Assembly: GCF_024758505.1 (NCBI RefSeq)
Contig: NZ_CP077970.1
Coordinates: 434,001 to 498,000, forward strand
Length of the DNA stretch: 64,000 nucleotides
Direction: 5' to 3'
Source of the DNA: Bradyrhizobium arachidis
Lineage (GTDB): Bacteria > Pseudomonadota > Alphaproteobacteria > Rhizobiales > Xanthobacteraceae
Position numbers and translations under genes: made by a program. Within the stretch, counting starts at the first letter, position 1; every line of letters begins with the position of its first letter. The notes below the pieces were generated by a model. It did no database searches, had not been told where the DNA came from, and worked only from the letters and a program-made list of their open reading frames with translations. Shown here piece by piece: positions 2,300 through 14,367 of this stretch.

Positions 2300-3934
2300 C
2301 TACAGCTTCGCGCGCTGCGCGATGCCGTCGCGGATGTCGGTGAGCTCTTTCTCGTCCCAGATGCCGATCAAGATGCCGCCCTTCACCTGGAGCTGGTTGT
2401 CGGCATAGGCCGCGATCTTCTCGTTTGACGTGGTGATGTGGCCGCTCGGATGCAGCGCCCAGTCGAACAGGGCGGCCTGCAGCCGCGCGATCACGTCGGC
2501 GCAATCGGGGTCGTCGCCGCGGTCGACATATTCTTCCGGATCGGTTTCGAGATCGTACAGCATCGGGCGGAAGCCGGAGGCGTGGATGTATTTCCAGCGG
2601 CCGTCATACACCATGAACAGGCGGCAGCGCTCGATCGGTTGGTTCAGCTTCAGCCGCACATCCTGCATGGCGTAGTCGTATTCGGAGAACACCACCTTGC
2701 GCCAGTCGGTGGGCTTTTCACCGCGCAGCAGCGGCAGCAGCGAACGTCCTTCGAGAATGTGCGCGGGCACCTTGCCGCCAAAGAAGTCGACGAAGGTCGG
2801 CGCGAGATCGATGCCTTCGACCAGCGCATCGCATGTGGTGCCACGCGTCGCATCGGCCTCCTGCGAGGGGTCGAGGACGATCAGCGGGATCTTTGCGGAC
2901 TGCTCGTGGAACAGGTCCTTCTCGCCCATCCAGTGATCGCCGAGATAGTCGCCGTGATCGGAGGTGAACACGATCATGGTGGTTTCCAACAGGCCGCGCT
3001 CCTCCAGAAATTTCATCAGCACGCCCATCTGGTCGTCGATCTGCGTGATCAGGCCCATATAGGTCGGGATCACCTTGTCGCGGGCATCGTCGCGCGCCAT
3101 GTTGCGGGAATAGCGCATGTCCATGTAGGCGCCGAACACCGGATGTGGGTTCTGCCGCTCGCGCTCGGAGCGGATCGCGGGCAGCATGTCTGATGTCGTG
3201 TACATGCTGTCGTAGGGTTTTGGCGCGATATAGGGCCAGTGCGGCTTGATGTAGGAGAGGTGCAGGCACCACGGCCTGCCGTCGCCCTCGGCCTCGGTGA
3301 TGAAGTCCATCGCGCGCCGCGTCATGTAGGGCGTTTCGGAATGCTCTTCCGGAACGCGCGCGGCCTTGTCGGCGTGAACCAGCAGCCAGCCGTTCTGCAA
3401 GCTTCCGTCGTCGTCGGCGCCGGAATTGGCCCAATGCTCCCACGGGTTCGATGCCTCAAACCCCTGCTTGCGCAGATACTCGTCATATTTCGGACGCGGC
3501 CGTCCGGTCGGGTGCAGCCCGTCATCGCGCTCATAGGGCTCGAAACCGCATTCGGCGACGTGCACGCCGATGACTGACTCCGGCGGGATGCCGAGCGCCT
3601 TCATGCCTTCGAGGTCGGGCGCCATATGGGTCTTGCCGACCAGCACGTTGCGGACGCCGATCTTCTTCAGGTGATCGCCGAGCGTGGGCTCACCGACGCG
3701 CAGCGGCCAGCCGTTCCAGTGCGAGCCGTGCGAGCGCATGTAGCGCCCGGTGTAGAACGACATCCGCGACGGTCCGCAGATCGGCGATTGCACATAGGCA
3801 TTGCTGAACAACACGCCACGCTTGGCCATGGCGTCGATGTTGGGCGTCTTCAGCGTGGGATGGCCGGTGCAACCGAGATAATCATAGCGAAGCTGGTCGC
3901 ACATGATCCAGAGAACGTTTTTCGCGCGCGCCAT
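2300..3934 (-). CDS. Sulfatase-family hydrolase (type I, Cys-type)
   Basis: Alkaline-phosphatase-superfamily sulfatase, 544 aa, probably cleaving a sulfate ester or phosphonate ester. The signature C53-G-P-S-R57 provides the cysteine that becomes formylglycine. The N-terminal metal-binding stretch is NVLWIMCDQLRYDYLG, and the C-terminal metal site is FTSDHGDYLGDHW. The chosen ATG has AGGGG at a good distance; a longer start five codons upstream lacks one. No signal peptide is visible, so it is probably cytoplasmic. With the divergent Bug gene it forms an accessory pair inserted between obgE and proB. The substrate is unknown, and no formylglycine-generating enzyme gene is in the window. Confidence 0.88.
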   Translation of the reverse strand: MARAKNVLWIMCDQLRYDYLGCTGHPTLKTPNIDAMAKRGVLFSNAYVQSPICGPSRMSFYTGRYMRSHGSHWNGWPLRVGEPTLGDHLKKIGVRNVLVGKTHMAPDLEGMKALGIPPESVIGVHVAECGFEPYERDDGLHPTGRPRPKYDEYLRKQGFEASNPWEHWANSGADDDGSLQNGWLLVHADKAARVPEEHSETPYMTRRAMDFITEAEGDGRPWCLHLSYIKPHWPYIAPKPYDSMYTTSDMLPAIRSERERQNPHPVFGAYMDMRYSRNMARDDARDKVIPTYMGLITQIDDQMGVLMKFLEERGLLETTMIVFTSDHGDYLGDHWMGEKDLFHEQSAKIPLIVLDPSQEADATRGTTCDALVEGIDLAPTFVDFFGGKVPAHILEGRSLLPLLRGEKPTDWRKVVFSEYDYAMQDVRLKLNQPIERCRLFMVYDGRWKYIHASGFRPMLYDLETDPEEYVDRGDDPDCADVIARLQAALFDWALHPSGHITTSNEKIAAYADNQLQVKGGILIGIWDEKELTDIRDGIAQRAKL

Positions 3935-4004
3935 GCTTCGCCCCTGCATTTTCTTGATTGTGCGATGCTGCGCTATCGCGCAGGCGAAGACAAGCGGGCG
4001 GCGA

Positions 4005-5622
<1,618 letters not shown>

Positions 5623-5739
5623 GGCTTTCGTCTCGCGATGGCAACACCTATCGGTACCGCGCTGCGAAGGGTGCGACAATCCGTTCAATTCGTTGTGGCC
5701 GGGCTTGTCCCAGCCTGCGAGGCCGTTAAAACGGCGCCA

Positions 5740-6657
5740 ATGCCTCTCTTCAAGAAACTCTCAGCCTACGACGAACGCTCCGCACGGTTGGCCGGCATCG
5801 CCCTGATGCTGCTGTCGATCTTCATGTTCTCGTTCGGCGACGCCATGGGCAAGTTCATGGTGGCGACCTATTCGGTCGGGCAGCTCCTGTTCCTGCGCGC
5901 GATCGCGGCGCTGCTCCTGCTGTCGCCGATCATCTGGCGGCAGCGCCATGAATTCACCCGCCTCGAACGGCCCTGGCTGCAGCTTCTGCGCGTGACGCTG
6001 TCGACGCTGGAGGTCGCGGCCTTCTTCCTTGCGACCGTCTATCTGCCGCTCGCCGACGTCATCACCTATTATCTCGCGGGGCCGATCTTCGTCACCGCCT
6101 TGTCGGCGCTTCTGCTCGGCGAGCATGTCGGCTGGCGGCGCTGGACCGCGATCCTGATCGGTTTTTGCGGCGTGCTGATCGCGCTGCGCCCCTCGGCACA
6201 AACCGTCAGCCTGCCGGCGCTGATCGCGCTCGGCGGCAGCCTGTCGTTCGCGCTGCTGATGCTGATCACGCGCTCCCTGCGCGAGACGCCCGACATCGTG
6301 ATGGCGTCGTCGCAGTTTTGCGGCACGTTCCTGCTCGGCCTCGGGCTCTCTGTGTTCCACTGGGTGCCGCCGACCGGCGGCAGTCTCGTGCTGTTCGCGC
6401 TGGCGGGACTCACCTCGGTCGCGGCGCTGTTCTGCGTCAACCGCTCGCTCAAGCTCGCGCCGGCAAGCGTCGTCGTGCCCTATCAATATTCGATGATCGT
6501 CTGGGCGGTGATTTTTGGCTTCGTCGTGTTCGGCGACGTGCCGTCGATGGCAACCATCATCGGCGCCGCGATCATCATCGGCGCCGGCCTCTACATCTAT
6601 CTGCGCGAGCGTGATCTCGGCCGCCAGGAGGATACGCAGGTGAGCCCGCCGGTTTAG
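5740..6657 (+). CDS. EamA/DMT-family permease
   Basis: Drug/metabolite transporter superfamily exporter with two EamA repeats and about ten membrane helices in 305 aa. Helix 1 is ALMLLSIFMFSFGDAMGKFM; the second repeat begins near ALIALGGSLSFALLMLITRS. The C-terminus is hydrophilic (LREREDLGRQED-like). The frame stays open far upstream, but that extension overlaps the MaoC gene in antisense and has no transporter character, so MPLFKKLSAYDE was chosen. The ribosome-binding site is weak. It probably exports a small metabolite or amino acid. Confidence 0.88.
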   Translation: MPLFKKLSAYDERSARLAGIALMLLSIFMFSFGDAMGKFMVATYSVGQLLFLRAIAALLLLSPIIWRQRHEFTRLERPWLQLLRVTLSTLEVAAFFLATVYLPLADVITYYLAGPIFVTALSALLLGEHVGWRRWTAILIGFCGVLIALRPSAQTVSLPALIALGGSLSFALLMLITRSLRETPDIVMASSQFCGTFLLGLGLSVFHWVPPTGGSLVLFALAGLTSVAALFCVNRSLKLAPASVVVPYQYSMIVWAVIFGFVVFGDVPSMATIIGAAIIIGAGLYIYLRERDLGRQEDTQVSPPV

Positions 6658-6662
6658 CTCTT

Positions 6663-6823
6663 ACCCTCCCCTGGAGGGGGAGGGTCGATCGCGCGAAGCG
6701 CGAGCGGGGTGGGGTGACGGTTTCTCCGCATCGAACACTGCCCGAGTGGAGAGATCACCCCACCCCGTCACGCAATCTCGCTTCGCTCGATCGCATGCCG
6801 ACCCTCCCCCTCCAGGGGAGGGT
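6663..6823. repeat. Large intergenic palindromic repeat, family B (copy 1)
   Basis: The outer arms ACCCTCCCCCTCCAGGGGAG and its complement, themselves partly palindromic, flank a core with the internal inverted pair GGGGTGGGGTGA / TCACCCCACCCC. The core string CTGCCCGAGTGGAGAGATCA recurs in the copy near 52.6 kb. It lies between the convergent EamA and GNAT genes. Confidence 0.85.
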
Positions 6824-6833
6824 GCATCGCTCG

Positions 6834-7427
6834 CTACCGCACCCGTCGTGCGCTGCTCCAGCTCTTCAGCGAGGACCAGACGCCGCGCGACAGGCGAAAG
6901 CTGTCGACCGGGGTTGACGATCCCAGCGCCTCGAAGCGGTGCAGCTCGACACCGCTCCACTGGAAGCCGCACTTTTCCAGCACGTTGCGCGAGGCCGGGT
7001 TGGTGACGCGCGCGCCGGCATAGAGGTGATCCTCCTCGAATTCCTCGAAGAAGAAGTCGATCGCACCACGCGCGGCCTCGGTGCCGTAGCCGCGGCCCCA
7101 ATGCTCGACGCCGAGCCAGTAGCCGAGCTCGGCATTGTCGGGCCTCGAGCGATCGATGCCGACCATGCCGACCGCCGTCTCGTCGTGCTCGATCAGGAAC
7201 ACGCTCTCGCTCCCGAGCTCGGCCGTGGCGCGGATGAACTCGACCGCATGCTCCTGGAGATAGGGATGCGGCAGGCGGCGGGTGTTCTGGGCGATGCGGA
7301 GATCGTTGGCGAGCTGCGAGATGGCCTTGACGTCGGCAAGTGTGGGGCGGCGCAGCGTCAGCCGCTCCGTGGCAACCACGCTCGGTCTCGCCTCGCGCAA
7401 GGTCGTGCTCGAAAAGTCCTGCAACAT
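6834..7427 (-). CDS. GNAT-family N-acetyltransferase (RimJ/RimL-like)
   Basis: Acetyl-CoA-dependent N-acetyltransferase of the ribosomal-protein/antibiotic type, 197 aa. It shows TERLTLRRPTLADV at the start of the fold, ELGYWLGVEHWGRGYGTEA as the acetyl-CoA loop (GRGYGTEA), and NPASRNVLEKCGF near the end. The start at MLQDFSSTTL is favoured by an ACGGAG site; a TTG or ATG up to eight codons upstream is possible. It is downstream of rpmA across a strong terminator. The substrate is unknown. Confidence 0.87.
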   Translation of the reverse strand: MLQDFSSTTLREARPSVVATERLTLRRPTLADVKAISQLANDLRIAQNTRRLPHPYLQEHAVEFIRATAELGSESVFLIEHDETAVGMVGIDRSRPDNAELGYWLGVEHWGRGYGTEAARGAIDFFFEEFEEDHLYAGARVTNPASRNVLEKCGFQWSGVELHRFEALGSSTPVDSFRLSRGVWSSLKSWSSARRVR

Positions 7428-7454
7428 GTCCGGCTCCGTCAACTTCATCAAGTC

Positions 7455-7489
7455 AAAACGAAAAGGGGAGGCCGGTTTCCCGCCTCCCC
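7455..7489 (-). terminator. Rho-independent terminator of rplU-rpmA
   Basis: On the minus strand a GGGGAGG/CCTCCCC stem with inner GC pairing is followed directly by TTTTCGTTTT. It lies about 80 bases past the rpmA stop. A second imperfect GC hairpin (GGACTCCGCCGG arms) sits between it and the stop codon. Confidence 0.85.
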
Positions 7490-7567
7490 TGGAGCCTTCG
7501 ATCTTTTGATCTTAAGGACTCCGCCGGTTTGGTCAGGACCCGGCGGACTCCAAATTTGATCCACCGT

Positions 7568-7837
7568 CTATTCAGCCGCCTCTGCGATCGGAAGTACCGA
7601 TACGAATGTGCGGCCGTTGGCTTTGGCTTGGAACGCGACGCGACCCTCGATCTTGGCGAACAGGGTGTGATCGGTGCCCATGCCGACATTAAGGCCGGGA
7701 TGCCAGGTAGTGCCGCGCTGACGCGCAATGATGTTGCCGGGAATCACGCGCTCCCCGCCGAACACCTTGATGCCAAGGCGCTTGCCCTTTGAATCGCGAC
7801 CGTTGCGCGATGAACCGCCTGCTTTTTTGTGAGCCAT
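7568..7837 (-). CDS. rpmA: 50S ribosomal protein L27
   Basis: Ribosomal protein L27 near the peptidyl-transferase centre. The 89 aa start [20 protein letters not shown] and contain [20 protein letters not shown], both diagnostic. It does not begin with the Firmicutes-type cleavable N-terminal extension. It is the second gene of the rplU-rpmA operon, about 100 bases after rplU. Confidence 0.98.
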
Positions 7838-7939
7838 GGCTCGTCTCCGAAATCCTGCGTATCTCTAGATCAATTCCTTGACGGAATCATTTCACAATTT
7901 CTCACGCATCAATTCGTGAATTGGCGTGATCAAATCTCG

Positions 7940-8326
7940 TTATTCGGCGGCTTCCTTGGAAGCTTCCTTGGCCACCTTCTCCTTCTTCGGACGCGGGCCC
8001 TTGGTGGGCTTGGAGTTGTCCGTCAGGATCTCGGTGACGCGCAGAACCGTGATCTCATCGCGATAGCCGCGCTTGCGGCGCGAGTTCTTGCGGCGGCGCT
8101 TCTTGAACGCGATGACCTTCGGCCCGCGCTTGTGGTCGAGCACCTCGACCGCAACGGACGCACCTGCGACCGTCGGAACGCCCAGGACCGGCGTGTCGCC
8201 GCCGACCACCAGGACTTCATTCAACTGCACGATCGTGCCGACTTCGCCGGCGATCTTGCCTACTTCGAGAACATCATCCGGAGCGACGCGGTATTGCTTG
8301 CCGCCGGTTTTGATGACTGCGAACAT
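7940..8326 (-). CDS. rplU: 50S ribosomal protein L21
   Basis: Ribosomal protein L21, which binds 23S rRNA. The 128 aa begin MFAVIKTGGKQYRVAPDDVL and contain the basic FKKRRRKNSRRKRGYRDEI region. A Lys/Ala/Glu-rich C-terminal tail of about 25 residues goes beyond the E. coli protein, as is common in alphaproteobacteria. It is the first gene of the operon and is preceded by a structured leader. Confidence 0.98.
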   Translation of the reverse strand: MFAVIKTGGKQYRVAPDDVLEVGKIAGEVGTIVQLNEVLVVGGDTPVLGVPTVAGASVAVEVLDHKRGPKVIAFKKRRRKNSRRKRGYRDEITVLRVTEILTDNSKPTKGPRPKKEKVAKEASKEAAE

Positions 8327-8350
8327 CGTTTTTTTCCTTCGTGTTCAATC

Positions 8351-8381
8351 CCGACCTTGCGGACAGTTACGTCCGGGTCGG
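8351..8381 (-). promoter_or_regulatory. Hairpin in the rplU 5' leader
   Basis: CCGACC pairs with GGTCGG, and an inner GGAC/GTCC stem closes a six-base loop, about 25 bases upstream of the rplU start codon. Read on the plus strand the same hairpin is followed by CTTTTTG, so it also resembles a terminator for any plus-strand transcript. A role as a ribosomal-protein leader is inference from its position only. Confidence 0.5.
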
Positions 8382-8669
8382 CTTTTTGTCAGTCGCTATG
8401 GGTTTACGATCCTTGCGCGGATGGGGTTTATCCCATTGAAAATCCACGCAAAAGCAAGCAGCGCGAGAACGCCCCGCGCCGGATCGGCCGGACTTATAGC
8501 CGCTCACGGCCCCGAGTCAAGGAAAACCGGCCGAAAAGGCTCCAAAACCGAGGAATTTGGCCGGCTTTCTACTGTGCATGGGGTTGTTTTCGAAAGTTGC
8601 CCGCATCTGCAACCATCGGGTTCCCGCGCCGTTGTCCCCGCCGAACACGTAAAGCGGGCATGGGCTCCG
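8382..8669. other. Intergenic region between rplU and the ROK gene
   Basis: Divergent intergenic region expected to hold the promoters of rplU-rpmA and of the ROK-family gene. The frame of the ROK gene stays open upstream through here, but the translation has no protein-like character. No RNA gene was seen. Confidence 0.5.
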
Positions 8670-9806
8670 ATGGCAACAGACGAATTGGTCGCGACGACAG
8701 GCATCGCCCAGCACGGCGCGGTGCGGCTGCCGTCGGTGGATGTCGACAGTTTCAACATTGAGATCAAGGACGAAGACGGTTTTCTCGGCGACCGCGCCAG
8801 CAAGGGCGCGTTCCGGGAAATCCTGGACCATTGGCGCAAGCCACTGCGCAAGACCGGGGAGGATCCGTTCGGCGACGAGCCCTCCGAGAAGATCAGCAAG
8901 AAGGTGTTGGACGACATGCTGGTCGGCGACGACACCGAGGCCTCCGCCGTGGTGCACAGCGCGATCGAGGAGTTCGCGCAGGAGCTGGCCTATGTGACGC
9001 GCCGTTTTCTGAAGACCAAGGCCTGGGCCAAGACCGAGCGCATCGTGGTCGGCGGCGGCTTTCGAGATTCCAGGCTCGGCGAGCTCGCGATCGCGCGGGC
9101 CGACATCATCCTGAAGTCCGAGAAATCTGGGATCGACATGGTGCCGATCCGCGCGCATCCCGATGAGGCCGGCCTGATCGGCACGCTGCATCTCGCGCCA
9201 TCCTGGATCTTTGAGGCCCATGACAGCATCCTCGCCGTCGATATCGGCGGCACCAATATCCGCTGCGGCGTGGTGGAAACGCGCTGGAAGAAGGCAAAAG
9301 ACCTGTCGAAAGCTGCGGTGTGGAAGTCCGAGTTGTGGCGTCACGCCGACGACAAGCCGACGCGCGAAGGTGCGGTGAAGCGGCTCACCAAGATGCTGAA
9401 GGCACTGATCACGCAAGCGGAGAACGAGGGTTTCAAGCTCGCGCCCTTCATCGGCATCGCCTGCCCCGGCGTGATCAACGCCGACGGCTCGATCGAGAAA
9501 GGCGCGCAAAACCTGCCCGGCAATTGGGAGAGTAGCAAGTTCAACCTGCCGGCGAGCCTGATCGAGGGCATTCCTGTCATCGGCGAGCACGACACCGCGA
9601 TCCTCATGCACAATGACGGCGTGGTGCAGGGCCTGTCGGAAGTGCCGTTCATGCAGGACGTCGAGCGCTGGGGCGTGCTCACCATCGGCACCGGCCTCGG
9701 GAATGCGCGATTTACCAATCGCCGCAAGGAGAACGGCAAGGACCGGGACTCTACGGAGAACGGCAAGAAGAAAGCCAAGGAAACAAAGGACAACGACAAG
9801 CAGTAA
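8670..9806 (+). CDS. ROK-family sugar-kinase-like protein with circularly permuted motif order
   Basis: A 378 aa protein with ROK/hexokinase-fold motifs. The adenosine-type glycine motif RIVVGGGF (124-131) and the C-terminal-type EAGLIGTLHLA (166-176) come first. Then come the phosphate-1 loop AVDIGGTNIRCGVV (189-202), ACPG (264-267), a base-like GEHDTA (D308) and phosphate-2 LTIGTGLGNARF (337-348). In canonical ROK proteins the GGG and final segments follow the phosphate loops, so this order is permuted. The zinc motif CxCGxxGC and the ExGH motif are absent. A Lys/Glu/Asp-rich tail ends the protein. The ATG at MATDEL was chosen; upstream in-frame sequence is non-coding in character. Sugar kinase activity is uncertain. 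Confidence 0.8.
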   Translation: MATDELVATTGIAQHGAVRLPSVDVDSFNIEIKDEDGFLGDRASKGAFREILDHWRKPLRKTGEDPFGDEPSEKISKKVLDDMLVGDDTEASAVVHSAIEEFAQELAYVTRRFLKTKAWAKTERIVVGGGFRDSRLGELAIARADIILKSEKSGIDMVPIRAHPDEAGLIGTLHLAPSWIFEAHDSILAVDIGGTNIRCGVVETRWKKAKDLSKAAVWKSELWRHADDKPTREGAVKRLTKMLKALITQAENEGFKLAPFIGIACPGVINADGSIEKGAQNLPGNWESSKFNLPASLIEGIPVIGEHDTAILMHNDGVVQGLSEVPFMQDVERWGVLTIGTGLGNARFTNRRKENGKDRDSTENGKKKAKETKDNDKQ

Positions 9807-9974
9807 CCTTGACCGGTTAGGTTAAGGCGGGGATTGCGTTGCGGCGCACGAGCCACTCGCTACGGTCGATCCGTCGTCTCACCTGGCCGGCGAAGCCGCC
9901 CTTCCCGACCAGATTTCAATGAGCGGCACGGGACCGCCGGTGTTTACCGCGTCTGGCGGTCCCACCCCTGGGGT

Positions 9975-10850
9975 TTAACCCCAACCCTGCCGTTGAAAAA
10001 ATCCCGCAATCTCCTCTGCCGCGCGCTCCGGATCCTCGCGATGGGGGAAGTGTCCGACGCCGCTGAACATTGCGAGATCGAGATCGGTGAAGGTTTCGCT
10101 GATACGATCAGTCCAGGCATAGGGAAACAGCGGATCGTGCTCGGCCCAGCGCACGCAGGTCGGCACCGCGATCGGCGGTGATATTGGCGCTTCCCCCTTC
10201 ATCATGGCGACGCGCGCCGCATGGGCCGCGCGATAATGCGCAAAGCCGCCCGCAAGATTGCCATCCTCAAAGAAATTATCGGCGAAGGCATCGAGCACAT
10301 CGTCGAAGGCGTCCTTGCGATGCGACCAGGTCTTGAGGAAATGCGCGATATAGAGCCGGCAGTTTTCGCGCGTCGTGCCGACGAGCTTTGGGGCCATCTC
10401 CATCTGGTGGAACGACTGGTACCAGATGTGGTTGAGCCGGTCGGGCGCCGCCATGCGCGGGCCGATGCCGGGATAGACGAAATCGAAGAAGAACAGCCCG
10501 GCGAGCCGCTCCGGCACACGGCGGGCGAGGGGCTGCATCACGGCGCCGCCGACATCATGGCCGACGACACCGAATCGCGCGATCCCCAGCGCATCCATCA
10601 GGGCCACCATGTCGGTGGCGTGCTGGTCCGGCCCGTAAGGGCCATCAGGCTTGTCGCTGGCGCCGAAACCGCGCAAATCGGGCGCAATCAGCGTGAAGCG
10701 GCCTGAAAGCCGCGTCATCACCGGCTCCCAGGTCAGCCAGAATTCCGGCCACCCATGCAGCAAAAGCAGCGGCTTGCCCTCGCCCAGGCGGGCCACATGG
10801 AAGCTGGCACCATTGGCTGTGACCTTGAGATGCTCCATCTCTGTTCCCAT
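9975..10850 (-). CDS. Alpha/beta hydrolase, epoxide hydrolase/dehalogenase type
   Basis: A 291 aa hydrolase with an aspartate nucleophile: HGWPEFW (32-38, oxyanion HGxP), APDLRGFGASDKP, the nucleophile elbow VVGHDVGG with D99, and a late VGHFPHREDPE supplying the catalytic His. This combination is found in epoxide hydrolases and haloacid/fluoroacetate dehalogenases rather than serine esterases. The frame extends upstream, but that part is the antisense of tRNA-Ser and is not coding. MGTEMEHLKV or, four codons later, MEHLKV is the start. There is no signal peptide. Confidence 0.87.
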   Translation of the reverse strand: MGTEMEHLKVTANGASFHVARLGEGKPLLLLHGWPEFWLTWEPVMTRLSGRFTLIAPDLRGFGASDKPDGPYGPDQHATDMVALMDALGIARFGVVGHDVGGAVMQPLARRVPERLAGLFFFDFVYPGIGPRMAAPDRLNHIWYQSFHQMEMAPKLVGTTRENCRLYIAHFLKTWSHRKDAFDDVLDAFADNFFEDGNLAGGFAHYRAAHAARVAMMKGEAPISPPIAVPTCVRWAEHDPLFPYAWTDRISETFTDLDLAMFSGVGHFPHREDPERAAEEIAGFFQRQGWG

Positions 10851-10957
10851 GCCGCAAAGAGGTGGCGGAATTTCGCCCCAGCCGCCTTGTCTGGCCCGCC
10901 ATCCTCGCCTAGAAGACACCCCGACCACAGGGGCTCTGCCCCCGATTTGGCCCTCAA

Positions 10958-11047
10958 GGAGAGGTGGCAGAGTGGTTGAATGCACCGCACTCGAAATGCG
11001 GCATAGGTGCAAGCCTATCGGGGGTTCGAATCCCTCCCTCTCCGCCA
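10958..11047 (+). tRNA. tRNA-Ser (anticodon CGA)
   Basis: A 90-base class II tRNA with encoded CCA. The acceptor stem GGAGAGG pairs with CCTCTCC, with discriminator G. The anticodon stem CCGCA/TGCGG encloses loop CTCGAAA, giving CGA at 10992-10994. There is a long variable arm, a GGTTCGAATCC T-arm, and a D-arm with GGTTGAA. It decodes UCG serine codons. Confidence 0.97.
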
Positions 11048-11068
11048 TATCGCCTTGAGCCAAGAATC

Positions 11069-11845
11069 CTACGGCCTCACGCCGGGTGCCTCCACCTTCA
11101 TGCCGCGTGCGCGTGACATCAGATAGAGCTCGAGCTCGACCATCTCAGGGGCGCCGTAGTCGTAAGGCTGTGCGCGGATGCCGGTCATGCAGCTTCGCAG
11201 GCGGCGCTGCAATGATCCGAGCGTCTGCCATTCCAGGCGGTAGAGGGGATAGCCGGTCGGGTGGGCCTGCGTGATTGCGGATCCCGCGAGGCGCTTGTCC
11301 CAGTTGTCATCGTGGCAATTCGTGCAGGCGAGATTGAGCTGGCCCTGCCGTCGCATAAAGAGATCGCGCCCGCTGGCGATGAATTGTGCGAGTTGCGGAT
11401 CGCCGCCGGTCTCGATCGGCATCTCGCGCGACTGCCGCGCAACGAAGGCGGTGAGCGCGAGCAGGTCGCGGCTCTCATAGGCGAGCGGGCTCGCCTGCTG
11501 ATGATTGGCCCGGCACAGATTGATCCGCTGCTCCAGGTCGACCAGGCGGCCGAGCGTCTTGTCGAAGGCCGGATAACGCGCGGCAACACCCTTCATGCTC
11601 GTGCGCGCGTCCTGATGGCAATCGGCACAGGCCTTGGCGGCAATGCCGTCCTTGCGAGTCCACAACGCTTCGCCGTCGAGGACCCAGAGCATGCCGGGAT
11701 TGGATGTGTCGTCGTCCTGGATCGCCTTGGTGTCAGGAGCCATGAAACTGTAGCTGGAGCGGCGCTCGGCTTGCGGGATTTCGCCGGCGACCACCGCTTG
11801 AGCCGTTGCCAGCGCAGCGATCGCGATGATGCCCAAAAATCTCAT
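11069..11845 (-). CDS. soxA: Sulfur-oxidation diheme cytochrome SoxA
   Basis: Catalytic subunit of SoxAX, which joins thiosulfate to the SoxY cysteine in the periplasm. A Sec signal ends near AQAVVAGE. Two heme sites follow, CADCH (73-77) and CTNCH (174-178). C111 is a plausible axial ligand, and C219 in RSCMTGIRAQPY is the active-site cysteine. Length 258 aa fits the diheme class. It overlaps soxZ by four bases and is the last gene of the sox block; the usual neighbour soxB does not follow. Confidence 0.95.
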   Translation of the reverse strand: MRFLGIIAIAALATAQAVVAGEIPQAERRSSYSFMAPDTKAIQDDDTSNPGMLWVLDGEALWTRKDGIAAKACADCHQDARTSMKGVAARYPAFDKTLGRLVDLEQRINLCRANHQQASPLAYESRDLLALTAFVARQSREMPIETGGDPQLAQFIASGRDLFMRRQGQLNLACTNCHDDNWDKRLAGSAITQAHPTGYPLYRLEWQTLGSLQRRLRSCMTGIRAQPYDYGAPEMVELELYLMSRARGMKVEAPGVRP

Positions 11846-12162
11846 TCGACGACGATCGACGCCGAGGCGGTCTCGGAAAAGCCGTTGTCACCGATCCATT
11901 CGAACTCGAACTTGCCGCTTTCGGTCGCCGTCGTGAAGAACGTGATGAACGGATTGGCTGATATTGCCGGATAGAGATCGGCACGAAAGATCTCGGCGCC
12001 ATTGTAGCGGCAGGCAAAGCTCGTGATGATGTTGCGCGGCACCACCTCGCCGGACGCGGTGTGGCGATAGCCTGTTTCCATGATGTGCGACATCAGCGTC
12101 TTGATCTCGATCACATCACCGCGTTTGGCCTTCGCCGGCACGTTGATGAGGGCGGCGGGCAT
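11842..12162 (-). CDS. soxZ: Thiosulfate oxidation carrier subunit SoxZ
   Basis: A 106 aa immunoglobulin-like partner of SoxY in the SoxYZ carrier. The family pattern is clear: KRGDVIEIKTLMSHIMETGYR, then IITSFACRYNGAEIFRADLY and a C-terminal FEWIGDNGFSETASASI. It has no signal peptide and is expected to be co-exported with Tat-dependent SoxY. Its start codon overlaps the end of soxY and its end overlaps soxA, indicating translational coupling. Confidence 0.96.
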   Translation of the reverse strand: MPAALINVPAKAKRGDVIEIKTLMSHIMETGYRHTASGEVVPRNIITSFACRYNGAEIFRADLYPAISANPFITFFTTATESGKFEFEWIGDNGFSETASASIVVE

Positions 12163-12641
12163 CAGATCACCTCCTCGGTGCAGGCGGCGAGCGTCACGAC
12201 GATGTCGACGGTGGCCGACCAGAACGTGTCGTCGGATAGCCGCGCGATCGCGACCACCTTCTGGCTGTCGGCGAGGCGGATGCGGGTCGACACCTGCGCG
12301 CGGCCGGCCCGCGGCCCGAGATGGAAGTTGCCGATGTTTGGCTGCGGGTTCTTCTCGTTGAAGACGTGGATGCTCTTCACATAGTCGTTCGCCGTCATCG
12401 GGCTGGTGACGCTTACCGTCATCGGCACCGTGTTGCCGTTCTCGACCAGCGGCGGAATGTCGAGCCTCACCCTACCGGTTCGCACATTGGCTTCACCGAC
12501 GACGTTGCGGATCGCCGCTGACAGCATGGCCGGCGTCGCATCGGCCGGGCGCACTGTGACAACGGGCGCTGTCACCAGCGCGGCCGCGCCGCCGGCGAGG
12601 CCCAAAAACGTTCGGCGCGTGGGTGGGTGAAAGTTCGTCAT
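12162..12641 (-). CDS. soxY: Thiosulfate oxidation carrier SoxY, variant C-terminus
   Basis: SoxY carries pathway intermediates on a C-terminal cysteine. The N-terminus holds a Tat motif (TRRTFLGLAGGAAAL), and the mature domain matches SoxY (VKSIHVFNEKNPQPNIGNF). The usual flexible end is GGCGG, with Cys next to last. Here the protein ends VVTLAACTEEVI, with C154 preceded by two alanines and followed by five residues. The Cys is retained, but the glycine swinging arm is not. It is 159 aa and sits between soxX and soxZ. Confidence 0.93.
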   Translation of the reverse strand: MTNFHPPTRRTFLGLAGGAAALVTAPVVTVRPADATPAMLSAAIRNVVGEANVRTGRVRLDIPPLVENGNTVPMTVSVTSPMTANDYVKSIHVFNEKNPQPNIGNFHLGPRAGRAQVSTRIRLADSQKVVAIARLSDDTFWSATVDIVVTLAACTEEVI

Positions 12642-12650
12642 TCTGCTGTC

Positions 12651-13103
12651 CTAGTCACGCAGCGTCACCAGATACGCCACGATGTCTTCGATCTGTTCCG
12701 CCGACAGGATCGGCTTGCCGCGCCAGGCATTACCGACACGGTCGAATCCGTCCACGCGGTAGTACGACGGCATGATCGTCGCGGCATTGAGACGCGATGC
12801 ATCCACCAGCCGCAACCTCAACTGTCCTTCCGACCAGCGGTTGCCGCTGCCGGACAGATTTGGCGCAAGATCGCCCTGGAACTTCTGCTCGGGGAACGGC
12901 CCGCCGTGACAGAGGATGCACGTCGAGGCGCGTTCGACCACCAGCGCGCGTCCATGCGCCGCGTCGCCATTGGCTCCCGTCAGCGGTTCCGGGATCGCGT
13001 CACCGACGATCGCGTAGGAGTGCAGGCTCTCCTCGGCCTCGGCGGGCCGTGGTGCTGCAAGCCAGGCGATTGCGACGAGCGCTATGGTCGATGCCCTAGC
13101 CAA
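12651..13103 (-). CDS. soxX: Sulfur-oxidation monoheme cytochrome SoxX
   Basis: Monoheme c-type subunit of SoxAX, 150 aa. A Sec signal ends at about AEAEES. The heme motif is CILCHGG (C62, C65, H66), followed by the SoxX pattern GDLAPNLSGSGNRWSEGQLR. The axial Met candidate lies in ATIMPSYYR. Its start overlaps the end of soxF by eight bases. It would pass electrons from thiosulfate conjugation to a cytochrome c. Confidence 0.95.
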   Translation of the reverse strand: MARASTIALVAIAWLAAPRPAEAEESLHSYAIVGDAIPEPLTGANGDAAHGRALVVERASTCILCHGGPFPEQKFQGDLAPNLSGSGNRWSEGQLRLRLVDASRLNAATIMPSYYRVDGFDRVGNAWRGKPILSAEQIEDIVAYLVTLRD

Positions 13104-14367
13104 ACGTGTCCACCGTTATGGCTTTGAACCAGTCCAGCGCCTGTTCCGCCTCGCGTTGGCGCACCTCGCGCGATGCGTCGACGGGGCTCGTGGTTGCTTC
13201 GACCTCGGCGTACTGATCTTCCTTGGGCTGATAGATGCCCTTCAGCGAAAACGCGTAGCTCGGCGCCACCGTGTTGTAGCAGGCGCCGTTGAGCCGCGGC
13301 ATGTCCGCCGGCTTGCCTGTGAAGGCGTTGACGATCGCCGCCGCGCAGGCCTTGCCTTGTGCGCTCGCGGCGGACGCCGATTTCGGGATACCGCCGGCGA
13401 TGGCGGCATCGCCGATGACATGGATGTTGGGCGCGATTTTTGACGCAAAGGTGACGGGATCGATCGGGCACCAGCCGGTGTGGTCGGCGGCGCCGACGAT
13501 CTCGGCGATACGACCGGCGCGCTGCGGCGGAATCACGTTGGCGACCTGTGCGGTGTAGTTGCCGAAATCGGTGACGATCTCGTTGGTCGCGGGATTGACC
13601 GACGTGACGCGCCCGCCCTGCGACAGCGCGATGCGCTCGATCATGCCGGGATAGAGCTCCTGCCAGGCGCGCTCGAACAGCTTTTGCTGCGAATAGCTGT
13701 CCTTGGCGTCGAGAATCAGGATTTTTGAGCGCGGCTTCCGCGCTTTCAGGTAGTGCGCGATCAGGCTGGCGCGCTCATAGGGCGCGGGCGGACAGCGCAG
13801 GGGCGCGGCCGGGACCACGATCGCGACGACGCCGCCATCGTCCATGGCCTCGATCTGCCGCCGCAACACCACCGTCTGCTCGCCGGCCGTCCAGGCGTGC
13901 GGCATTTTTGCTGACGCGGGTTCGTCGTAACCCGGCAGCGCATCGAAGCGTATCTCGATGCCGGGCGCGAGTACCAGGCGGTCATAGGCGAGCGTGCGGC
14001 CGTCGGCGAGGCGGATCGTGCGCGCTTGCGCATCCACCTTCACGGCGGCCTGTGCGACGACCGTGACGCCGTCTGCCGCGATCCTGTCGTAGGTAAAGGT
14101 CTGCTCGGACAATTGGCGCAGGCCCGCGATCACTTCATTGCTGAACGGGCAGGCCACGAATGTCGGGCCCGGCACGATCAGCGTCACCTGCAGTCTTGAA
14201 TCGAGCCGGCGCAGCGCACGCGCGCAGGCCGCGCCGCCAAATCCGCCGCCGATCACGGCGACGCGCGCGCTCCCTTGCGCGAAGGACGGGCATGCCAGCG
14301 CGGCCGCCGCAAGGGCGGCGGCTCCGCGGGCGACATCTCGCCGCGTCGGACGATGCGTGACGGCCAT
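13096..14367 (-). CDS. soxF: Flavocytochrome c sulfide dehydrogenase flavoprotein (SoxF/FccB-like)
   Basis: FAD-dependent sulfide:cytochrome c reductase flavoprotein, periplasmic. The N-terminus has a Tat motif (TRRDVARGAAALAAAA). The Rossmann loop is VAVIGGGFGGAACARAL (37-53). Redox cysteine candidates are C73 in FVACPFSN and C300 in TGWCPIDP. HVIGDAAIAGGIPKSASAA is the second FAD contact. At 423 aa it matches FccB/SoxF. No cytochrome partner (SoxE/FccA) lies beside it. It heads the sox genes, 57 bases after the molybdopterin subunit gene. Confidence 0.92.
   Translation of the reverse strand: MAVTHRPTRRDVARGAAALAAAALACPSFAQGSARVAVIGGGFGGAACARALRRLDSRLQVTLIVPGPTFVACPFSNEVIAGLRQLSEQTFTYDRIAADGVTVVAQAAVKVDAQARTIRLADGRTLAYDRLVLAPGIEIRFDALPGYDEPASAKMPHAWTAGEQTVVLRRQIEAMDDGGVVAIVVPAAPLRCPPAPYERASLIAHYLKARKPRSKILILDAKDSYSQQKLFERAWQELYPGMIERIALSQGGRVTSVNPATNEIVTDFGNYTAQVANVIPPQRAGRIAEIVGAADHTGWCPIDPVTFASKIAPNIHVIGDAAIAGGIPKSASAASAQGKACAAAIVNAFTGKPADMPRLNGACYNTVAPSYAFSLKGIYQPKEDQYAEVEATTSPVDASREVRQREAEQALDWFKAITVDTFG

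Follow-up and report, generated by a model that had tools for sequence, protein, structure and literature searches.

A probable circularly permuted kinase of the ROK family in Bradyrhizobium arachidis

Why do the motifs of an ROK-type kinase stand in an unusual order in a protein of Bradyrhizobium arachidis, and would a chain arranged in this way still be a kinase? The question arises from an open reading frame in a 64 000-nucleotide stretch of contig NZ_CP077970.1 (hereafter the window). Its translation shows, in this order, VVGGG (residues 126–130), EAGLIGT (166–172, overlapping HPDEAGLIG at 163–171, between GGG and DIGGTN), DIGGTN (191–196), ACPG (264–267), GEHD (305–308) and IGTGLG (339–344), followed by a charged tail up to residue 378. 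We take DIGGT, GTGxG and GGG to be the phosphate-1, phosphate-2 and adenosine motifs respectively.

Pfam analysis matched the protein to the ROK family (PF00480) with 32.8 bits against a cut-off of 22.9, over profile positions 2–154 of 294 only. Matches to NCBIfam kinase models were found from residue 181 onward only, every one under its cut-off, and a PHROGs search gave no match. Besides the score above the Pfam cut-off, the features of ROK membership that were present were the two phosphate motifs, the adenosine motif and the ND, and those absent were the linear order, CxCGxxGC and ExGH. The protein resembles known ROK members (N-acetylmannosamine kinase and ROK glucokinases) in its DIGGT, PG, ND, GTGxG, GGG and C-terminal helix motifs and has ROK kinases among its fold matches, but its halves appear circularly reordered, the zinc motif is lacking, ExGH is not conserved, and there is an insertion before the ND together with a conserved segment (W223/H225/R232). 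The hexokinase (PF00349) and glucokinase (PF02685) families share the superfamily fold, but they are not permuted and the window protein scores higher to ROK.

Relatives of the protein were compared in two alignments. A1 contains 18 rows, the window protein included, hand-chosen from 52 genome-search loci independently of any motif. A2 contains 50 rows, the window protein and 49 relatives from 80 loci; the loci were found by the patterns HND[AG]V[VA]QG and T[IV]GTGLGNA, and these motifs are therefore conserved in A2 by construction. The family alignment has 68 rows, with the window protein in twice (as the window and as L005). Every one of the 50 A2 rows, with the window protein among them, matched the Pfam ROK family at E <= 0.01, and weak matches to Hexokinase_1 and Glucokinase were obtained for 21/50 and 2/50 of these rows. 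The features of the gene, all on the + strand, are as follows.

8670..9806 (+): complete open reading frame of the putative permuted ROK-like protein, 378 residues plus stop; Pfam ROK over residues 188–363 only
8703..9209 (+): residues 12–180, predicted counterpart of the canonical ROK C-terminal half (hhalign, residues 72–177 to ROK columns 203–302; N-half model)
8712..8717 (+): H15-G16, close to the new N-terminus and aligned with the start of the canonical ExGH substrate loop (in A1, H15 in 16/18 rows with 2 gaps, G16 in 14/18)
8787..8792 (+): G40-D41, invariant in 68/68 rows; D41 aligned with the canonical GCxE Glu, in a region where the alignment is uncertain
9051..9059 (+): GGG 128–130, adenosine motif, first in order here and late in canonical ROK (translation, alignments)
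9156..9200 (+): HPDEAGLIGTLHLAP, residues 163–177, predicted counterpart of the canonical C-terminal helix motif (profile comparison, global alignment)
9201..9230 (+): junction, residues 178–187, from former C-terminus to former N-terminal strand (rotation scan peak, cuts 180–186)
9231..9728 (+): residues 188–353, predicted counterpart of the canonical ROK N-terminal half (Pfam, hhalign, global alignment)
9240..9257 (+): DIGGTN 191–196, phosphate-1 motif (translation, alignments)
9462..9470 (+): CPG 265–267 (family alignment)
9507..9527 (+): QNLPGNW 280–286, aligned with the canonical ROK NLP segment
9582..9593 (+): GEHD 305–308, taken as the catalytic ND in the preliminary description; D308 variable (D in 7/18 rows of A1 and 16/50 of A2)
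9609..9617 (+): HND 314–316, opposite the ND of canonical ROK; D316 would be the catalytic base (model, alignments)
9687..9704 (+): GTGLGN 340–345, phosphate-2 motif; the conserved chain stops shortly afterwards (translation, alignments)
9729..9803 (+): charged tail, residues 354–378 (model confidence low; varies among relatives)

Profile and structural comparison of the two halves

The order GGG, DIGG, PG, HND, GTG was found in 18/18 rows of A1 and 50/50 rows of A2. A profile of canonical-order ROK proteins was built from 36 sequences, namely nine short ROK proteins, four of the L169 type, 21 fructokinase-like proteins, L049 and L185. In hhalign comparisons with this profile, the native order gave two matches, residues 185–352 on ROK columns 8–152 (E = 1.5e-14) and residues 72–177 on ROK columns 203–302 (E = 3.6e-5). 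With the halves swapped, a single alignment of 286 columns was obtained (E = 4.7e-19), so that joining the former termini and rotating the chain brought both halves into alignment over the whole length. A global alignment to canonical ROK passed through all motifs.

In a rotation scan of the family alignment against the ROK profile, the native order scored 107.9 over 142 columns. The score peaked at 139.9–140.4 over 285 columns for cuts at 180–186, with lower values on the flanks (129–130 at cuts 132–168, 121 at 192 and 105 at 204). As controls, 20 shuffles of the first-half columns scored 106.9–112.2 and the reversed first half scored 108.0; the canonical ROK alignment itself was best unrotated (251.7) among the 7 positions tried. 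The preliminary description had proposed a permuted motif order, and the profiles bear this out, as the halves match ROK separately in swapped order and rotation at 180–186 joins them with a score above 20/20 shuffles. It had also proposed that the normal C-terminal helix runs straight into the normal first strand, which agrees with a scan peak that falls on the junction at residues ~178–187. Taken together, these sequence profiles strongly support a circular permutation.

Smaller profiles gave a partial picture. The 21 fructokinase-like proteins, which were those of 30 loci that came through a motif filter, had made up an earlier profile that also placed the halves in swapped order in separate runs (N-half, E = 5e-5; C-half, E = 1.5e-4); with this set alone, swapping the halves left two separate matches that did not merge. 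The N-half matched the nine short ROK proteins alone over GGG only (E = 0.078), and the four L169-type proteins alone over the C-terminal helix only (E = 9.6e-4). The latter four (L169, L170, L171 and L173), canonical-order ROK proteins from other families of the phylum, gave the best match to the C-terminal half when each of three sets was tried on its own (E = 1.8e-15) and share the NLP segment and the ND with the window protein, but they have the normal order and the zinc motif. The short proteins (L176–L184), which come from the same bacterial family as the window and have 223–259 residues as trimmed, also lack the zinc motif, and their NDAxMQ resembles HNDxVVQ, but their order is normal and their match to the C-terminal half is weaker (E = 7.7e-11). 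These short proteins also match NF045942, the model for polyphosphate glucokinase, with scores under its cut-off. When the halves of the window protein were swapped in silico, its Pfam ROK match was not lengthened (8–174 of 352 residues); with this single-sequence HMM test failing, profile–profile comparison was required.

An AlphaFold2 model built from 50 sequences had a pLDDT of 85.9 and a pTM of 0.84, with residues 1–11 and 354–378 below 50, and placed HND (314–316) at a strand–helix junction. Foldseek searches against the PDB, which align sequentially, matched the full model to N-acetylmannosamine kinases and other ROK kinases over 164–185 columns with a TM to the query of 0.27–0.35, as expected if only half of the chain aligns sequentially. 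The ROK match with the best rmsd was 2yhy (168 columns, rmsd 2.7, E = 3.6e-5). The top match and three more of the 50 listed were tandem two-domain hexokinases (5hfu, 1dgk and 5hex twice; 405–432 columns, rmsd 29–35), and single-domain human glucokinase aligned over 145–203 columns. The query may here span the junction of two tandem hexokinase copies, as a permuted query should; this lends the permutation weak support, since long alignments (about 266–341 columns, poor rmsd) were likewise obtained with non-tandem proteins, namely exopolyphosphatases and Hsp70-like chains, and aligned ranges are not part of the search output. The model and the fold searches are compatible with a circular permutation.

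Active-site and substrate-region residues

The preliminary description took GEHD for a catalytic ND changed to HD and proposed altered catalysis on that ground. D308 of this segment varies among relatives, however, and a true ND, N315-D316 within HNDGVVQGLSE, aligns with the canonical ROK ND and is kept in 18/18 rows of A1. The same holds for H314, D191, GGG, GTG and N345, and in a larger alignment (51 rows, with the window protein in twice) HND was found at no less than 97%. Thus the ND is retained rather than replaced, and of the two parts of the earlier reading the permutation is well supported and the altered catalysis through HD is not.

The absence of the zinc motif, also part of that description, was confirmed by CxCG in 0/68 rows. 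The Glu and His of the ROK ExGH motif align to R19 and S22, both variable, in a part where the alignment is uncertain. D41, opposite the Glu of canonical GCxE, is invariant (18/18 rows of A1, and all rows of the family alignment). That neither the zinc motif nor the Glu and His of ExGH are retained suggests altered substrate binding. At the other end of the chain, the charged tail is not a conserved part, since its pLDDT is below 50 and many relatives finish shortly after GTGLGN; A2 rows are trimmed at match ends, and A2 lengths were excluded from this comparison.

Distribution and genomic context

With the window protein as the query, matches were found in 116/198 genomes of the same bacterial family (E <= 0.001; some in pieces or fragments only), and two genomes of the window's genus (G105 and G122) carry two near-full copies each. 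At the class level 17/385 genomes matched, among them one (G393) with a weak match to a canonical-order ROK, and at the phylum level 36/398 matched, 14 of the 36 weakly (E = 2e-5 to 4e-4). Four of these 14 were read as proteins, and all four had the canonical order with the zinc motif; a fifth weak locus (L172) yielded no protein with the extraction pattern. A scan of named genomes gave at least 565 confirmed relatives among at least 595 pattern matches. The 80 kept were the nearest to L057, a first sequence of the Betaproteobacterial type, and came mostly from Acidovorax, Variovorax and kin, with some from Bradyrhizobium and Afipia; those of Acidovorax and Variovorax keep the swapped order. 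The most diverged of the near-full family matches is a full-length relative with 43% identity, L186 (G121:C110:19889-21933); in this one genome a gene of the glucokinase family (PF02685) lies ~100 bases away, on the same strand as L186. The genome of the window, a single contig of 9.43 Mb, has four ROK matches, the permuted gene included, and one standard glucokinase.

The permuted gene reads away from rplU (L21, 7940–8326, − strand) and rpmA (L27, 7568–7837, − strand), which lie divergent and upstream of it. Beyond them, in the region 4005–8326, Pfam analysis showed an Obg GTPase (4005–5045, − strand), a GNAT acetyltransferase and an EamA transporter. A sigma-70-like promoter pattern had no match at 8320–9950. 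Elsewhere in the window, Pfam matches showed a sulfatase with an SGSH-type C-terminal domain (2300–3949, − strand) and a sulfur-oxidation-like cluster (11069–14367, − strand) with a SoxA/TsdA-type cytochrome (11069–11845) and a flavocytochrome c sulfide dehydrogenase flavoprotein (13096–14367); the small open reading frames between these two are presumably SoxZ/Y/X-like. A tRNA-Ser (CGA) at 10958–11047 (+ strand) lies antisense inside the 5′-extended part of the open reading frame listed for an alpha/beta hydrolase (9975–11063, − strand), and the real start of the latter is therefore probably downstream of the tRNA.

The neighbours of 21 loci (the window and 20 others) were analysed using a custom crude gene caller, which recognised the target in 19/21 loci and missed it in L186 and L195. 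Among 72 neighbouring proteins, relatives were common only to the pairs window/L200, L190/L201 and L198/L202, and no partner conserved across lineages was found in these loci that could name the substrate. Across 81 loci (80 named and the window), context was common within lineages, with the rplU open reading frame at 16 and other neighbours at up to 37. The permuted gene thus behaves as a single gene, since its neighbours are conserved only within lineages and not between them.

Two specific identities were also considered. Replacement of glucokinase was rejected, as the presence of the permuted gene was independent of that of glucokinase in the 198 genomes (65 with both, 51 with the permuted gene only, 49 with glucokinase only and 33 with neither; p = 0.66). 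Identity with polyphosphate glucokinase was likewise rejected, with 0/100 genomes giving a match over the cut-off of that model; polyphosphate glucokinase chemistry is possible for the permuted protein.

Proposed explanation and its alternatives

We think it likely that the protein is a naturally circularly permuted ROK-branch member of the actin-like (hexokinase/HSP70/actin) fold and an ATP-dependent kinase with a changed substrate pocket. The old C-terminal helix would be linked to the old first strand through residues ~178–187, and the chain would now begin and end within the substrate/zinc loop, at a point flanked by the GTGxG hairpin and the ExGH segment; the profiles and the model suggest that the chain refolds into a two-lobed kinase. 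By analogy with canonical ROK enzymes, ATP would be bound through DIGGTN, GTGLGN and GGG, and D316 of HND would act as the base that activates a hydroxyl group of a small substrate. The loss of the zinc motif and ExGH, together with an invariant D41 where GCxE has its Glu, may have left a different or simplified substrate pocket. The protein is thus most likely an active kinase, its substrate loop remodelled, that acts on a small molecule, probably a sugar or sugar derivative.

The permuted fold could instead belong to a protein that is a kinase no longer, an ATP-binding regulator, sensor or scaffold that kept the nucleotide motifs and lost phosphotransfer, like the ROK repressors. The loss of ExGH and the zinc motif and the lack of a conserved metabolic operon would suit such a protein, as would the other three ROK matches in the genome, which sit in proteins that look regulator-like by eye. 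However, HND, DIGG, GTGLGN and GGG are invariant in 18/18 rows of A1, which exceeds what would be expected of a non-catalytic protein, and a DNA-binding domain was detected by Pfam neither in the window protein nor in any of the 50 A2 rows. We regard a regulatory role as unlikely.

Far less probable is an ordinary ROK kinase half behind an unrelated N-terminal domain, with the GGG and helix motifs there by chance. Pfam detects the C-terminal half only, as such an arrangement would predict, and the N-half alone gives weak fold matches. Residues 1–184 modelled alone reached a moderate pLDDT of 70.9, and among the 50 Foldseek matches listed for this model none had E <= 0.001 and the lowest E-values belonged to two CntL entries, which are unrelated. 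The N-half gave no Pfam match, and its profile gave four chance-level matches against PDB sequences, with no kinase among them. Nevertheless, the N-half profile aligns with the absent half of ROK in the expected columns of the 36-protein profile (E = 1e-5), and the joined score exceeds every shuffle. The highest-probability match of the 50 listed for the half-model was the ROK glucokinase 3vgk (probability 0.96, TMq 0.48, E = 0.12), with other ROK kinases within the top 22. Both the profile match and the moderate half-model are consistent with the N-terminal 185 residues being the C-terminal half of an ROK fold, as the preliminary description had expected.

That two incomplete ROK genes were fused, or that the assembly is at fault, is scarcely credible and already contradicted: tandem duplication with loss of the outer halves could give the swapped order, and the gene is in pieces or fragments in some genomes (for example G114, G136, G143, G179, G186 and G189), but relatives are single, full-length genes with the same order and common invariant residues in many genomes of more than one class, and the single-chain model is confident.

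Natural circular permutation is known for other folds. In the portions available of the open-access literature on ROK, glucokinase/hexokinase and ASKHA permutation, no report of a permuted ROK protein was found, and the available parts of PMC1079889, PMC2213659 and PMC4471445 are not about one. Such proteins are probably filed in databases as ordinary or partial ROK proteins, since the Pfam domain model spans only half of the protein. With moderate confidence, we see in this family a widespread natural permutation in which the ROK/hexokinase fold was opened at the substrate loop, and which would have given rise to a new kinase class with a substrate of its own and with the ATP site and the catalytic ND kept. 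If such a permutation of a two-lobed kinase is natural and conserved, it would indicate how much re-wiring the actin-like fold can bear, and new ends at the place where ROK enzymes recognise their substrate would make the family a natural experiment on whether new specificities can arise through permutation.
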